A stretch of DNA of 5,292 bases from Pseudomonadota bacterium. Lineage in GTDB: Bacteria; Pseudomonadota; Gammaproteobacteria; Burkholderiales; Sulfuricellaceae. This document shows positions 1-5,292 of this stretch, in pieces; the stretch's first letter is position 1; every line of letters starts with the position of its first letter. The notes below the pieces were generated by a model. That model saw nothing but the letters and a program-made list of their open reading frames with translations. It ran no database searches and was not told where the DNA came from. The DNA lies in contig JAJXTJ010000121.1 in NCBI GenBank assembly GCA_021783895.1, positions 1 through 5,292 of the forward strand. The letters are read 5' to 3'. The position numbers and the translations under genes are program-made.

Positions 1-632
1 TCGAGTGCGGCGACACCAAGGTAATCTGCACCGCCAGCATCGACGAAAAAGTGCCACCCTTCCTGCGCGGCAAGGCTCAAGGGTGGACCACCGCCGAATA
101 CGGCATGCTGCCGCGCTCCACCAATACCCGCATCGACCGCGAGGCGGCCAGGGGAAAGCAGACCGGGCGCACCCAGGAAATCCAGCGCCTGATCGGACGT
201 TCCCTGCGCGCGGTGGTGGACTTGAAGGCGCTCGGCGAGCGCACTATCCAGATCGATTGCGATGTCATCCAGGCTGACGGCGGCACCCGTACCGCCAGCA
301 TCACCGGCGCTTATGTGGCGCTGCACGATGCCGTTTCCTTCCTGCTGAAGGCGGGCAAGCTGACGGCATCGCCGCTACGCGATTTCGTCGCCGCGGTTTC
401 GGTCGGAGTTTATCGGGGCGTGCCGGTGCTGGACCTGGACTATGCCGAGGATTCCGATTGCGACACCGACATGAACATCGTCATGACCGGCAGCGGCGGC
501 TTCGTCGAAGTGCAGGGGACGGCGGAAGGCGCGCCGTTCTCGCGTACTGAAATGGATGCCATGCTCGATCTTGGCCAGAGCGGGATCGCGCAACTGGTGG
601 CCAAGCAGAAGGCGGCGTTGGGAGTTGTTTGA
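1..632 (+). CDS. rph: Ribonuclease PH, 5'-truncated by window edge
   Basis: RNase PH is a phosphate-dependent 3'-to-5' exoribonuclease that trims the 3' ends of tRNA precursors in the cytoplasm. The frame is open from base 3 (bases 1-2 finish an earlier codon) to TGA at 630-632, giving 209 visible residues. The family is about 238 residues long, and alignment from memory to the E. coli protein puts the first visible Glu at about residue 31, so roughly 30 N-terminal residues lie outside the window. Family hallmarks are visible in order: [15 protein letters not shown], the phosphate-binding ADGGTRTAS segment, the acidic [10 protein letters not shown] metal-site region and the [12 protein letters not shown] block near the C-terminus. 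Nothing is missing or frameshifted. The GTG at position 51 could be taken for a start but lies inside the conserved domain. The gene faces the MDH-lyase fusion tail to tail across an inverted repeat; rdgB, often next to rph in related bacteria, is not here. Confidence 0.97.
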
Positions 633-2821: not shown

Positions 2822-2825
2822 GAGG

Positions 2826-2832
2826 CCTCCTT
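2826..2832 (-). promoter_or_regulatory. Strong Shine-Dalgarno site of the MDH-lyase gene
   Basis: The minus strand reads AAGGAGG here, a full anti-16S match, with a four-base spacer (cctc) before the ATG at 2821-2819. The spacer is slightly short, but the site fixes the start, since the encoded N-terminus ([15 protein letters not shown]) matches that of family members. Confidence 0.85.
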
Positions 2833-2858
2833 AAAAATAGTCGGGTAAAGTTGCAATA

Positions 2859-2882
2859 TCGATGCGATCATGACAGCATCGA
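2859..2882. promoter_or_regulatory. 24-bp near-perfect dyad, candidate operator
   Basis: TCGATGC and GCATCGA face each other across ten bases whose core, TCATGA, is itself palindromic. In all, 20 of 24 positions are two-fold symmetric about the 2870/2871 junction. It lies 38 bp before the MDH-lyase start codon and just downstream of the proposed minus-strand -10 box. This position would suit a dimeric repressor or, in RNA, a small leader hairpin. No regulator gene lies in the window. I do not recognise the motif as a known family box. Confidence 0.5.
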
Positions 2883-2897
2883 GAATAATGAGCCGCA

Positions 2898-2927
2898 ATG
2901 ATAGATGGTATTGTTGTGGGGTGTAAA
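2898..2927 (-). promoter_or_regulatory. Candidate sigma-70 promoter for the MDH-lyase gene
   Basis: On the minus strand TTTACA (2927-2922; five of six consensus bases) is followed after 18 bp by TATCAT (2903-2898; five of six). The start point would fall near 2890, giving a leader of about 70 nt that contains the 24-bp dyad. The match is good, but the region is AT-rich, so chance resemblance is possible. Confidence 0.4.
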
Positions 2928-3011
2928 TATCTGCAACCGGTTAACCCACATGTTTTGCTCCTTGCCGCTATAATGTTCTCCGGCGCTAAACGGGAAATCT
3001 GGAGAATGCGT

Positions 3012-3044
3012 GGTCAATAAGCTCTTTTTATGACCCTATTTTTT
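3012..3044 (+). terminator. Weak terminator-like hairpin with T-tract
   Basis: GGTCAATAA (3012-3020) can pair with TTATGACC (3028-3035), leaving one bulged A, and six T residues follow at 3039-3044. The stem is AU-rich and no gene on the plus strand ends just before it. It sits just upstream of the best rightward promoter, so it could shield that promoter from upstream transcription, or be a chance structure. Confidence 0.25.
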
Positions 3045-3052
3045 AAACTATA

Positions 3053-3080
3053 TTGTCAATCTTTCGAACTTCTTTATAAT
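3053..3080 (+). promoter_or_regulatory. Sigma-70 promoter for the Fe-S/flavoprotein operon
   Basis: TTGTCA (3053-3058; five of six) and a perfect TATAAT (3075-3080) are separated by 16 bp. Transcription would start near 3086-3088, leaving a leader of about 117 nt before the ATG at 3204. This is the best promoter match in the intergenic region and points at the correct operon. Confidence 0.6.
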
Positions 3081-3107
3081 CAGATCGCTTTGTCTTGAGT
3101 TAAATGG

Positions 3108-3157
3108 GCGACTGAGCCGGTTGGTTTCCCCCGCTTAAAGATGTTGGCTCCAGTCGC
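3108..3157 (+). promoter_or_regulatory. Strong hairpin in the leader of the Fe-S/flavoprotein operon
   Basis: GCGACTGAGCC (3108-3118) pairs with GGCTCCAGTCGC (3146-3157) to give an 11-bp stem with a single bulged base and a 27-nt loop. No T-run follows, so it is not an intrinsic terminator. It lies inside the predicted leader, 46 nt before the start codon. The loop sequence CCCGC could pair with GCGGG at 3179-3183, just before the ribosome site, as a pseudoknot; this part is speculative. It matches no riboswitch class that I recognise. Confidence 0.45.
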
Positions 3158-3203
3158 TGTGCGGCATAGTATCTGATTGCGGGAATTAAATAAGGGTTTT
3201 CAT

Positions 3204-3947
3204 ATGGCTAGCGTGCCGGCAGGAACAACGAATAGTCTGTCTGTTTCACAGATTAACGAGAAGCTCGATGCGGCGGGGGAGCGCCTGATCACGGTTTACA
3301 TCATGGGCAAGGCCTACGAGGTGCCAGCCGAGGCGACCATCATGGGCGCCATCGAATATGCTGGCCACCAGATCATCCGCGGCGCCGGTTGCCGCGAGGG
3401 CTATTGCGGCGCCTGCGCCACCATCTACCGCTTGCCCGGCGACTACAAGATCCGCACCGGACTGGCCTGCATGACTCTGGTCGAAGAGGGCATGACGCTG
3501 GCCCAGATCCCCTCGGTTCCTGCCGAGAAGGCGATCTACGACATCGAGAAACTCAAGCCCAACGTCAGCGCCATCCAGCAGATGTACCCGTCGGTGTTCC
3601 GTTGCGTCGCGTGCGGAACCTGCACCAAGTCCTGTCCGCAAGGACTCCAGGTCATGGATTATGTCCAGGCCGCCAAGCGGGGCGATATTGCCGCAGTGAT
3701 GGACCTGTCCTTCGACTGCGTCGTCTGCGGGCTGTGCATGCTGCGCTGCCCGGCCGAAATCACTCAGCCCCTGATGGGCATCATGGCGAAGCGCCTTTAC
3801 GGCCGCTATCTGCGCAAGGACAGCCCGGAACTGGCGGAGCGCGTCAAGGCGGTGGAAGAAGGTGTCTACGAGGCCGAATACGCTGAAATGATGTCGATGA
3901 GCCGCGAAGCTTTATCCGAGCGTTACTACGCTCGGGACACGGAATAA
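3204..3947 (+). CDS. Succinate dehydrogenase/fumarate reductase-type Fe-S subunit, non-classical
   Basis: A 247-residue electron-transfer subunit expected to carry electrons between the flavoprotein encoded next and a quinone, thiol or other partner. The N-terminal half is a plant-type 2Fe-2S domain: C63, C68, C71 and C89 (GCREGYCGAC, then TGLAC). E. coli SdhB has Asp at the third position; here it is Cys. The C-terminal half holds two complete Cx2Cx2Cx3CP motifs, C134/137/140/144 and C172/175/178/182, predicting two 4Fe-4S clusters. Classical SdhB has a 3Fe-4S site with Cx5Cx3CP in the second position. The charged C-terminal tail is probably helical. No signal peptide or membrane segment is seen, so a cytoplasmic location is expected. 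ATG 3204 is chosen over TTG 3177 because AAGGG lies seven bases before it and the TTG has no ribosome site. It precedes the flavoprotein by 12 bp, so the two are one operon. An HdrC-like or dicluster ferredoxin role is the alternative reading. Confidence 0.9.
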   Translation: MASVPAGTTNSLSVSQINEKLDAAGERLITVYIMGKAYEVPAEATIMGAIEYAGHQIIRGAGCREGYCGACATIYRLPGDYKIRTGLACMTLVEEGMTLAQIPSVPAEKAIYDIEKLKPNVSAIQQMYPSVFRCVACGTCTKSCPQGLQVMDYVQAAKRGDIAAVMDLSFDCVVCGLCMLRCPAEITQPLMGIMAKRLYGRYLRKDSPELAERVKAVEEGVYEAEYAEMMSMSREALSERYYARDTE

Positions 3948-3959
3948 GAGGGGAATCAG

Positions 3960-5292
3960 ATGTATCCAGAGTACATGGAAGAATCGTTGCGCAAGGTGGT
4001 CCAGACGCGGCCCGCTCGCCTGGAATTGGCCAGGAAGACCGCCCCCGTTTACCCGCCCATGAATGCCGATGAGCGGCGCAAGGTTCTGGAGGATTTTCAT
4101 CCCGATTTCAAACCTGACGCCCTGCGTCCGGTAAGCATCGGCCCCAACCGGGGCGAGACGCTGACCACCGAAGTCGCCGACCTGCTGGAATCCCATTCCT
4201 GGCTGCGCAGCGAGCAGGTGAATCTCGACAAGCCGGATTTTGAAACCGATCTTCTGATCATCGGCGGCGGCGGCGCCGGCTGCAATGCCGCGCTGGTCGC
4301 CATGCAGCAACACGGCATCCGTTCGTTGATCGCCACCAAGCTGCGCATGGGCGACGCCAACACCATGATGTCCCAGGGCGGCATGCAGGCGGCCGTGTCG
4401 CGCACCGATTCGCCGACCAAGCACTATCTGGACGCCATCGGCGGCGGCCATTTCGAGAACAAGCCCGAGCTGGTCAAGGCGCTCACCGAAGACGGCCCCG
4501 GCGTGGTCAAATGGCTCGAAGATCTGGGCGTGGTGTGGGACAAGGAAGAAGACGGCTCCATCCAGGTGCGGCATGGCGGCGGCACCATGCGCAAGCGCAT
4601 GGTGTCCTGCCGCGACTACACCGGCGCGATGATCATGCGCACCCTGATGGACGAGGTGCGCAACCACCCCGACATGATCGACATCAAGGAATTCATGCCG
4701 GCGGTGGAATTGATCATGGACGACGAAGGCCGTTGCGCCGGCGCCATCCTTTACGACATGGACAGCGAGGAATTTTTCACCGTCAAGGCGAAATCGACCC
4801 TGATCGCCACCGGCGGCTACGGTCGCCTGCACATTCGCGGCTTCGACACCACCAACCATTACGGCGCCACCGGCGACGGGCTGGTGATGGCCTACCGCGC
4901 TGGTGCCAAGCTGATGTACATGGACTCCGTCCAGTACCACCCGACCGGTGTTTCGTTCCCCGAGCAGATCGCCGGCTTCCTGGTCACCGAGGCGATCCGC
5001 GGCGCCGGCGGCCAGCCGCTCAACAAGGACGGCGAGCTGTTCGTGTTCCCGCGCGAGCCGCGCGACATCGAGGCCTCGGCCATCATCCGCGAATGCGTGC
5101 AGAACGGCGGCGGCGTCGAAACCCCGTCGGGACGTTTTGGCGTGTGGCTGGATTCGCCGCTGATCGACATGCTGCACGGCGAGGGATACACCGAGAAGCA
5201 CTTCCCGGCGATGTATCGCCAGTTCATCCGCTACGGCATCGACATCACGAAGCTGCCGATGCTGATCTACCCGTCATTGCACTACCAGAATG
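3960..5292 (+). CDS. Succinate dehydrogenase/fumarate reductase-type flavoprotein subunit, 3'-truncated
   Basis: The FAD-containing catalytic subunit, interconverting succinate and fumarate or a similar dicarboxylate pair. It is open for 444 codons to the window edge; relatives are near 550-600 residues. ATG 3960 follows GAGGGG with a six-base spacer. An N-terminal extension of about 95 residues, lacking a signal peptide or Tat motif, precedes the Rossmann motif DLLIIGGGGAG (97-107), which normally lies near the start. SQGGMQAA (138-145) matches the family AQGG block, but the position of the FAD-linking His holds Asn134, so FAD is probably bound non-covalently. Further family motifs are ATGGYGR, QYHPTG (H327), TEAIRGAGG, Arg377 in SAIIRE (possible proton-shuttle Arg) and H441 in LHYQN, matching the CHYMMGG His of SdhA. 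The retained active-site residues favour dicarboxylate chemistry over L-aspartate oxidase or adenylylsulfate reductase. The preferred direction is unknown. Confidence 0.9.
   Translation, partial: MYPEYMEESLRKVVQTRPARLELARKTAPVYPPMNADERRKVLEDFHPDFKPDALRPVSIGPNRGETLTTEVADLLESHSWLRSEQVNLDKPDFETDLLIIGGGGAGCNAALVAMQQHGIRSLIATKLRMGDANTMMSQGGMQAAVSRTDSPTKHYLDAIGGGHFENKPELVKALTEDGPGVVKWLEDLGVVWDKEEDGSIQVRHGGGTMRKRMVSCRDYTGAMIMRTLMDEVRNHPDMIDIKEFMPAVELIMDDEGRCAGAILYDMDSEEFFTVKAKSTLIATGGYGRLHIRGFDTTNHYGATGDGLVMAYRAGAKLMYMDSVQYHPTGVSFPEQIAGFLVTEAIRGAGGQPLNKDGELFVFPREPRDIEASAIIRECVQNGGGVETPSGRFGVWLDSPLIDMLHGEGYTEKHFPAMYRQFIRYGIDITKLPMLIYPSLHYQN

Follow-up and report, generated by a model that had tools for sequence, protein, structure and literature searches.

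The window analysed here is a stretch of 5,292 nucleotides from a Pseudomonadota bacterium (contig JAJXTJ010000121.1 of assembly GCA_021783895.1), and it holds four genes: the end of an RNase PH gene, a malate dehydrogenase gene fused to a CitE-like domain, an iron-sulfur protein gene (frdB) and a flavoprotein gene (frdA) that is cut by the end of the window. The last two form a fumarate reductase-like pair and are the main subject of this work. The frdB/tfrB-like iron-sulfur subunit (247 aa), identified from its open reading frame (ORF), Pfam matches and motif counts, lies at 3204-3947 on the forward strand; the mechanical ORF begins with TTG at 3177, and ATG 3204 was adopted as the start. 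The frdA/tfrA-like flavoprotein, recognised by its ORF, its FAD_binding_2 match in Pfam, its residues and its place in a tree, runs from 3960 on the same strand and is still open at base 5292 after its first 444 aa, the full-length protein having 571 aa in the relative L001. All that follows about the region beyond base 5292 is inferred from relatives. As a preliminary description of this DNA had said, the window has no membrane-anchor gene upstream of frdB; the genes there are the malate dehydrogenase fusion and RNase PH.

The iron-sulfur and flavoprotein subunits

Genome contigs were scanned for related loci, and the best 80 of 116 were used, giving 81 stretches with the window. Identity to these loci is 59-92% in the scan. 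The nearest (L001-L026, 79-92%) belong to metagenome-assembled genomes (MAGs) of Nitrosomonadales, Gallionella, Sideroxydans and Hydrogenophilales; wider hosts are Rhodocyclaceae, Thiotrichales and Rhodospirillales, and the farthest (about 57-70%) are Aminicenantes, Acidobacteriota, Bacteroidota, Coatesbacteria, Rokubacteria, Neomarinimicrobiota and Cloacimonadota. By label, L001-L027 comprise 25 betaproteobacterial loci and two from Gammaproteobacteria (L004, L013) that are equally close to the window. Both genes are present in 78 of the 81 stretches, frdA not being found in L058, L069 and L072, and frdB precedes frdA in all 78, with a gap of -60 to 400 bp in 71 of them; in six stretches the mechanical frdA ORF begins too far upstream, and frdA of L034 is split into two. 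Since it is kept across these best-scoring loci at such a range of identity, the frdB-frdA pairing is far beyond chance.

Pfam matches in the iron-sulfur subunit are to a 2Fe-2S domain and to a dicluster domain of the 4Fe-4S kind. All 81 iron-sulfur subunits carry CX4CX2CX17C plus two CX2CX2CX3C motifs, that is, motifs of the [2Fe-2S] (one) and [4Fe-4S] (two) types and none of the [3Fe-4S] type; both CX2CX2CX3C motifs end in CP in 78 of them, one lacking the proline in L031, L047 and L051. E. coli SdhB and FrdB have one CX2CX2CX3C motif and one in which the second cysteine is replaced, which we take to be the [3Fe-4S] type. The iron-sulfur subunit of methanogen Tfr has one [2Fe-2S] and two [4Fe-4S] clusters, a set matched here. 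Unlike in methanogen TfrAB, no CCG domain was found among the Pfam matches of the 247-aa window protein, the relatives having a separate HdrB, and the TfrB model scores 39 bits against a cut-off of 385. An AlphaFold model of FrdB reached a mean predicted local distance difference test (pLDDT) of 74 and a predicted template modelling (pTM) score of 0.53 with a 23-row alignment; a search of the Protein Data Bank with it returned nothing informative (top TM about 0.2-0.3 by query length), and the model carries no weight in what follows.

Among named families, the flavoprotein comes closest to TfrA of methanogens. This best NCBIfam match (NF004900) has 265 bits for the cut window protein and 340, 351 and 301 bits for the full-length proteins of L001, L064 and L078, all far under the cut-off of 718; the flavoprotein model of 8-methylmenaquinol:fumarate reductase (MFR) gives 205 bits with L001 (cut-off 1100). 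Residues were counted in the 75 flavoproteins of at least 400 aa, window included (L011, L034 and L068 of the 78 are shorter). The equivalents of E. coli FrdA H232, E245, R287 and H355 are kept in all 75, and R390 in all 73 that reach that position, the window protein ending before it. Asn stands in 75/75 at the position of His44, the covalent site of flavin adenine dinucleotide (FAD). We assume for these residues the roles assigned in E. coli FrdA, FAD binding for His44 and active-site function for the other five.

The tree has 41 rows, and the 25 Tfr-like ones, chosen from the 78 flavoproteins, group together with support of 100/100. Classical SdhA with E. coli FrdA (seven rows) and NadB (seven rows) fall outside it, where long branches meet; the SdhA place of one relative (L121 of G002), which has in-frame stops, was left out. 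The relation to methanogen TfrA/TfrB and to MfrA was judged by hidden Markov model scores in place of the tree. Classical SdhAB/FrdAB identity was rejected on the separate group, the missing covalent-FAD His and the missing [3Fe-4S]-type motif, and L-aspartate oxidase identity because the NadB rows group on their own. The view of the preliminary description, namely a non-classical enzyme in B-A order whose two subunits depart from SdhAB in their cofactor motifs, is thus borne out. So is its betaproteobacterial setting: the rows closest to the window are L014 (94% identity) and L002, both from Hydrogenophilales/Hydrogenophilaceae MAGs.

The nearest flavoprotein paralogues, L113 and L114 (44-47% identity), join the tree as sister rows. 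One lies in a frdB-frdA-nuoF-like run (L114, genome G027) and the other ahead of a nuoF-like gene (L113, G026); they may represent another type of soluble fumarate reductase linked to NADH.

The gene cluster in relatives

The genes of L001 run frdB frdA rbr hdrC hdrB korD korA korB korC hdrA flxD flxC, and rbr, hdrC and hdrB follow frdA in 26 of the 27 loci L001-L027, the exception, L011, stopping inside frdA. In relatives, the CCG-domain gene looked for to the right of the window is hdrB, and no membrane-anchor genes of the sdhC/sdhD kind were found directly after frdA in the relatives' stretches examined. Five downstream stretches (L099-L101, L103, L104) all continue with flxC-flxB-flxA and then genes of 426 and 900 aa, named aclA and aclB from L099 and from Citrate_bind matches at those places. 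Genes of 648-649 aa (acn) and 741-742 aa (idh), named from L103, come next in L100, L103 and L104; L101 has the idh-sized gene, and L099 neither. Two other proteobacterial stretches, L102 (G026) and L105 (G027), agree through aclA, the latter also with a 916-aa aclB-like gene, and in L106 (G024) the acl genes come ahead of frdB. The full order assembled from close relatives is therefore frdB-frdA-rbr-hdrC-hdrB(CCG)-korDABC-hdrA-flxDCBA-aclAB. Judged from these relatives, the window is probably the left end of a reductive (reverse) tricarboxylic acid (rTCA) cycle cluster, and its own contig would continue in the same way. We favour the rTCA reading because the gene for the CCG protein lies among those for HdrA, HdrC and Flx, next to the genes for 2-oxoglutarate:ferredoxin oxidoreductase (Kor) and ATP-citrate lyase (ACL).

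Over the whole sample of 80 loci, all three gene sets (Hdr, Flx and Kor) lie on the same strand within 11.5 kb in 46, and at least one such gene does so in 78. The two loci with none (L011, L034) have the gene pair at a contig end, and many without all three sets are short or one-sided contigs; among those of about 20 kb, L037, L039 and L075 lack Flx, L055 has nothing but Flx and L060 lacks Kor. The common order in Aminicenantes is hdrCB-korDABC-hdrA-flxDCBA-frdBA.

HdrA of the relatives scores 800 bits with the HdrA2 model, and FlxD matches the C-terminal part of HdrA2 with 165 bits (cut-off 1100 for this model). Two CCG motifs were counted in 55 of 58 HdrB proteins; of the remaining three, L025 is cut, L049 is a fragment of 207 aa and L050 gives a third, overlapping pattern match. 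Each of the 58 HdrC proteins carries two 4Fe-4S motifs. FlxA carries an NAD-binding domain, and the names flxB and flxC are presumed from place and size. KorA passes the general 2-oxoacid:acceptor model (543 bits, cut-off 411) and stays below the 2-oxoglutarate-specific one (372 against 579 bits), and the best model for KorD is the delta subunit of the 2-oxoglutarate enzyme (57 bits, cut-off 125), so that the Kor substrate would be 2-oxoglutarate/succinyl-CoA as far as the sequences can tell. KorB of L001 (15822-17066) has, by eye, a long Lys/Ala/Pro-rich C-terminal tail. In 19 other loci among L002-L026 the KorB frames run to 383-433 aa, whereas many Aminicenantes loci have frames of about 290 aa.

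The closest published system is the korABCD-tfrAB-flxABCD-hdrABC rTCA cluster that the account in PMC6315080 places in the Escarpia and Riftia symbionts, Thioflavicoccus mobilis and the MAG RIFOXYD12_FULL_61_37, to which our locus L032 belongs; the window is a further member in a new host group. Relatives share with the cluster, as described there, interspersed frd, hdr, kor and flx genes, a gene set that includes rbr, aclAB, acn, idh and mdh, and RuBisCO in the same genomes. Hosts here are of betaproteobacterial type (Gallionellaceae/Hydrogenophilales-type), whereas the published ones are Gammaproteobacteria, and the window, L002 and L014 have mdh fused to the CitE-like domain. This work adds the betaproteobacterial spread, the occurrence in other phyla without this ACL type, a [NiFe]-hydrogenase variant, the malate dehydrogenase fusion, the missing FAD His, the absence of a [3Fe-4S] motif and the variation of the donor module; a search of one open-access literature collection weakly suggests that betaproteobacterial occurrence is unreported.

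Other known systems resemble parts of the cluster. The FrdABCDE enzymes of Aquifex and Hydrogenobacter are linked to NADH. Like the present system, they reduce fumarate within the rTCA cycle and have additional partner subunits; FrdA-E are listed in PMC10052474. With Methanosarcina HdrA2B2C2, presented in PMC5296606 as a characterised bifurcating enzyme, and with Desulfovibrio FlxABCD-HdrABC, the relatives share an HdrA2-like HdrA, a FlxD equal to the C-terminal part of HdrA2, an HdrB with two CCG motifs and an NAD-binding FlxA. Unlike in both of these, fumarate reductase and Kor genes are interspersed, and the acceptor is presumably fumarate, not a heterodisulfide.

Two side observations concern the flanks of this cluster. 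Pyruvate:ferredoxin oxidoreductase-like, LysR-type regulator, ApbE-like and Rnf-like genes, named by eye, adjoin it in L001 (952-8024). Past the cluster of RIFOXYD12_FULL_61_37 (L102, 12641-19001), a peptide recurs at regular intervals in antisense frames, which have the look of an array of clustered regularly interspaced short palindromic repeats (CRISPR).

Electron supply and direction of the reaction

FrdBA is probably the soluble fumarate reductase of the rTCA cycle, fed by Hdr-type bifurcation driven by reduced nicotinamide adenine dinucleotide (NADH). In the mechanism we propose, FlxA/B/C/D would pass NADH electrons into HdrA, which would split each pair. The high-potential electrons would travel through HdrC/HdrB to FrdB/FrdA and fumarate, the FrdB clusters handing them from the HdrABC core to the flavoprotein for the step from fumarate to succinate, and the low-potential electrons would reach KorABCD through ferredoxin sites for the synthesis of 2-oxoglutarate from succinyl-CoA and CO2. 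Such coupling would be stoichiometric, because one turn of the cycle takes one fumarate reduction and one Kor step. Synthesis of 2-oxoglutarate has a potential of about -520 mV. Values given in PMC5861303 are +33 mV for fumarate and -320 mV for NADH. Together these standard potentials yield roughly -30 kJ per 4 electrons. A splitting of NADH electrons between fumarate and 2-oxoglutarate synthesis was already proposed in the discussion of the cluster in PMC6315080 and is restated in PMC11636981, where a DsrC alternative is added.

Several observations weigh against this proposal. In L055, on a chromosome-level record, flxBA-frdBA is present, but 20 kb gave neither an Hdr nor a Kor match, and in L030 and L060 hdrC follows frdA with no hdrB match in the next 7-8 kb. 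We met no biochemistry on this fumarate reductase branch in the literature examined. The HdrB protein scores 173 bits with the SdhE model of MFR and 171 with the HdrB model, both below cut-off. DsrC-family genes occur in 38 of the 44 genomes with the system, a distribution that does not separate a direct route from one through DsrC. According to the expression results quoted from PMC11636981, the rTCA, Hdr-Flx and Kor genes of Endoriftia respond alike, tfrAB excepted, which weakens the case for an obligate complex.

The last two points count for an alternative in which coupling is indirect: Hdr-Flx would bifurcate to ferredoxin and a DsrC-like (or other) dithiol carrier, and FrdAB would be a separate thiol- or ferredoxin-linked enzyme. 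Both CCG motifs are present in HdrB, and those of methanogen HdrB act on a disulfide, as this alternative would have it; in methanogen Tfr, however, the CCG domain is in the same chain as the iron-sulfur subunit, which would fit direct HdrB-FrdB contact. Six of the 44 genomes (G015, G018, G019, G033, G043, G044) have no DsrC match, though MAGs may be incomplete. Indirect coupling, the DsrC-like form of which PMC11636981 names alongside the differing tfrAB expression, is in our judgement unlikely, at about one part belief to three of doubt.

The scores of HdrB also bear on type E succinate:quinone reductases (SQR), one example of the CCG-using branch to which the preliminary description had likened the pair. 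HdrB would here be an SdhE-type peripheral anchor and electrons would be exchanged with quinone. Type E SdhB, like FrdB, has a second [4Fe-4S] cluster replacing [3Fe-4S] (PMC2680327, in its treatment of type E), and SdhABE enzymes, MFR among them, have a CCG partner protein, but the flavoprotein has no covalent-FAD His, its MFR score for L001 is below its TfrA score, HdrC, HdrA, Flx and Kor genes are in the same run, and SdhC/D-type genes are present anyway in most genomes. Type E identity was rejected on residues, model scores and gene context, and we hold a quinone-linked enzyme to be very improbable. Of the likeness proposed earlier, the TfrA affinity and the downstream CCG gene stand, and the type E context does not fit.

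As for direction, PMC9557727 reports that related enzymes in which FAD is bound non-covalently, both aspartate oxidases and soluble fumarate reductases, reduce fumarate only. Taken with the Asn at the covalent-FAD position, this analogy points to fumarate reduction only. The complex could conceivably work in reverse, 2-oxoglutarate oxidation (through reduced ferredoxin) and succinate oxidation confurcating to NADH in an oxidative cycle. HdrA-type bifurcation is reversible in principle, and four of the 22 betaproteobacterial-type genomes (G002, G009, G013, G019), among them the two closest to the window (G002, G013), have no match to 2-oxoglutarate dehydrogenase E1. Reverse operation would nevertheless be uphill by about 30 kJ per 4 electrons on the same standard potentials; ACL genes adjoin the cluster, SdhC/D-type genes are found in most genomes, and the non-covalent-FAD enzymes of PMC9557727 are reported unable to oxidise succinate. 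We therefore regard it as improbable.

These gene counts come from 27 relatives' genomes, 20 labelled betaproteobacterial, two labelled Gammaproteobacteria (L004, L013) and five others, in which MAG incompleteness makes absences weak. Sdh_cyt (SdhC/D) is matched in 24, with two or more matches in 21 of these, so the fumarate reductase system looks like an addition to classical Sdh in most of them; of the two roles offered earlier, an added system is upheld, and a replacement Sdh gives way to an rTCA fumarate reductase. The Citrate_bind domain of ACL is found in 24/27; the three without it (G010, G021, G022) had no 900-aa aclB either. RuBisCO is present in 25/27, and since RuBisCO and ACL markers occur in most of the same genomes, this suggests that two carbon-fixation cycles co-occur. 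The 2-oxoglutarate dehydrogenase E1 is matched in 21/27, G002, G013 and four others being without it.

The source of low-potential ferredoxin in rTCA bacteria is called an open question in PMC10052474, and a complex coupling fumarate reduction to 2-oxoglutarate synthesis would, if real, settle part of it. The betaproteobacterial genomes further hint at a second carbon-fixation cycle in RuBisCO-bearing relatives of iron and sulfur oxidisers.

Carriers in other phyla and the remaining genes of the window

None of the 17 non-proteobacterial genomes with the module has an AclB relative of the 900-aa length, the search returning SucD-like matches only, in 16 of them (best about 260-290 residues, 29-34% identity). 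The proposed coupling of fumarate and 2-oxoglutarate would thus not depend on this ACL type. In 11 of the 17, Citrate_bind is matched over part of the domain with 26-33 bits, 10 of these matches exceeding the curated cut-off, and in 10 of the 11 the weak Citrate_bind place adjoins the SucD-like place on one contig. Such a pair, seen as a 516-573-aa Citrate_bind frame beside the SucD-like gene in Aminicenantes-type and other genomes (G028, G029, G032-G034, G036, G038, G040-G042), may be a succinyl-CoA or citryl-CoA synthetase-type enzyme, and these organisms may use another citrate-cleaving route.

The donor module varies as well. Seven FlxD/MvhD proteins without adjacent flxCBA (L037, L039, L048, L063, L065, L075, L078) are 66-95% identical to one another and 48-60% identical to seven chosen Flx-linked ones (14 of 58 compared). 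On a 9.8-kb contig of a Neomarinimicrobiota MAG (L078), a [NiFe]-hydrogenase large subunit opens a run (3-8339) with hdrCBA, mvhD and frdBA, and no kor or flx match was found on that contig; by eye, the run also holds a hydrogenase maturation protease-like gene. Because a similar hydrogenase is found in Flx-type genomes too, an exchange of the donor from Flx to [NiFe]-hydrogenase in L078 is only suggestive. In a Cloacimonadota MAG (L080, 2756-10729), one run holds kor genes and frdBA together with what by eye are genes of succinyl-CoA synthetase, making three consecutive rTCA steps, and the 10.7-kb contig has no Hdr match.

A broader reading may be offered tentatively, as one a little short of an even chance, which draws mainly on operon content and on these donor variants. 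FrdBA would be the dedicated high-potential acceptor of an HdrA-type complex, a modular bifurcating fumarate reductase in which the fumarate and Hdr parts stay constant and the donor is exchanged (NADH/Flx mostly, [NiFe]-hydrogenase in L078); it would not be tied to the ACL-type rTCA cycle, and in autotrophs it would supply low-potential electrons 1:1 to 2-oxoglutarate synthase, which would account for ferredoxin reduction in some rTCA bacteria. The modular variants would serve as natural controls for tests of coupling.

The window opens with the 3' end of RNase PH (3-632, forward strand), assigned by ORF call and family matches. The malate dehydrogenase~CitE-like fusion (670 aa) follows at 809-2821 on the reverse strand, assigned by ORF call and domain matches, and is separated from the divergent frdB by an intergenic region at 2822-3203, which by these coordinates is the expected promoter place. 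Malate dehydrogenase occupies about residues 1-330 of the fusion and the CitE-like HpcH/HpaI lyase domain about 336-670. At the same divergent spot, mdh stands alone in L001 and L011 and a citE-like gene alone in L004, L006, L007, L013 and L023. Among the best 120 of 929 matches, at least eight sequence clusters (P0001-P0008) contain the fusion in full length, with identities of 76-100%. At a guess, the fusion might channel oxaloacetate to malate. Among solved structures, its CitE part most resembles proteins bearing the title 'putative citrate lyase'.

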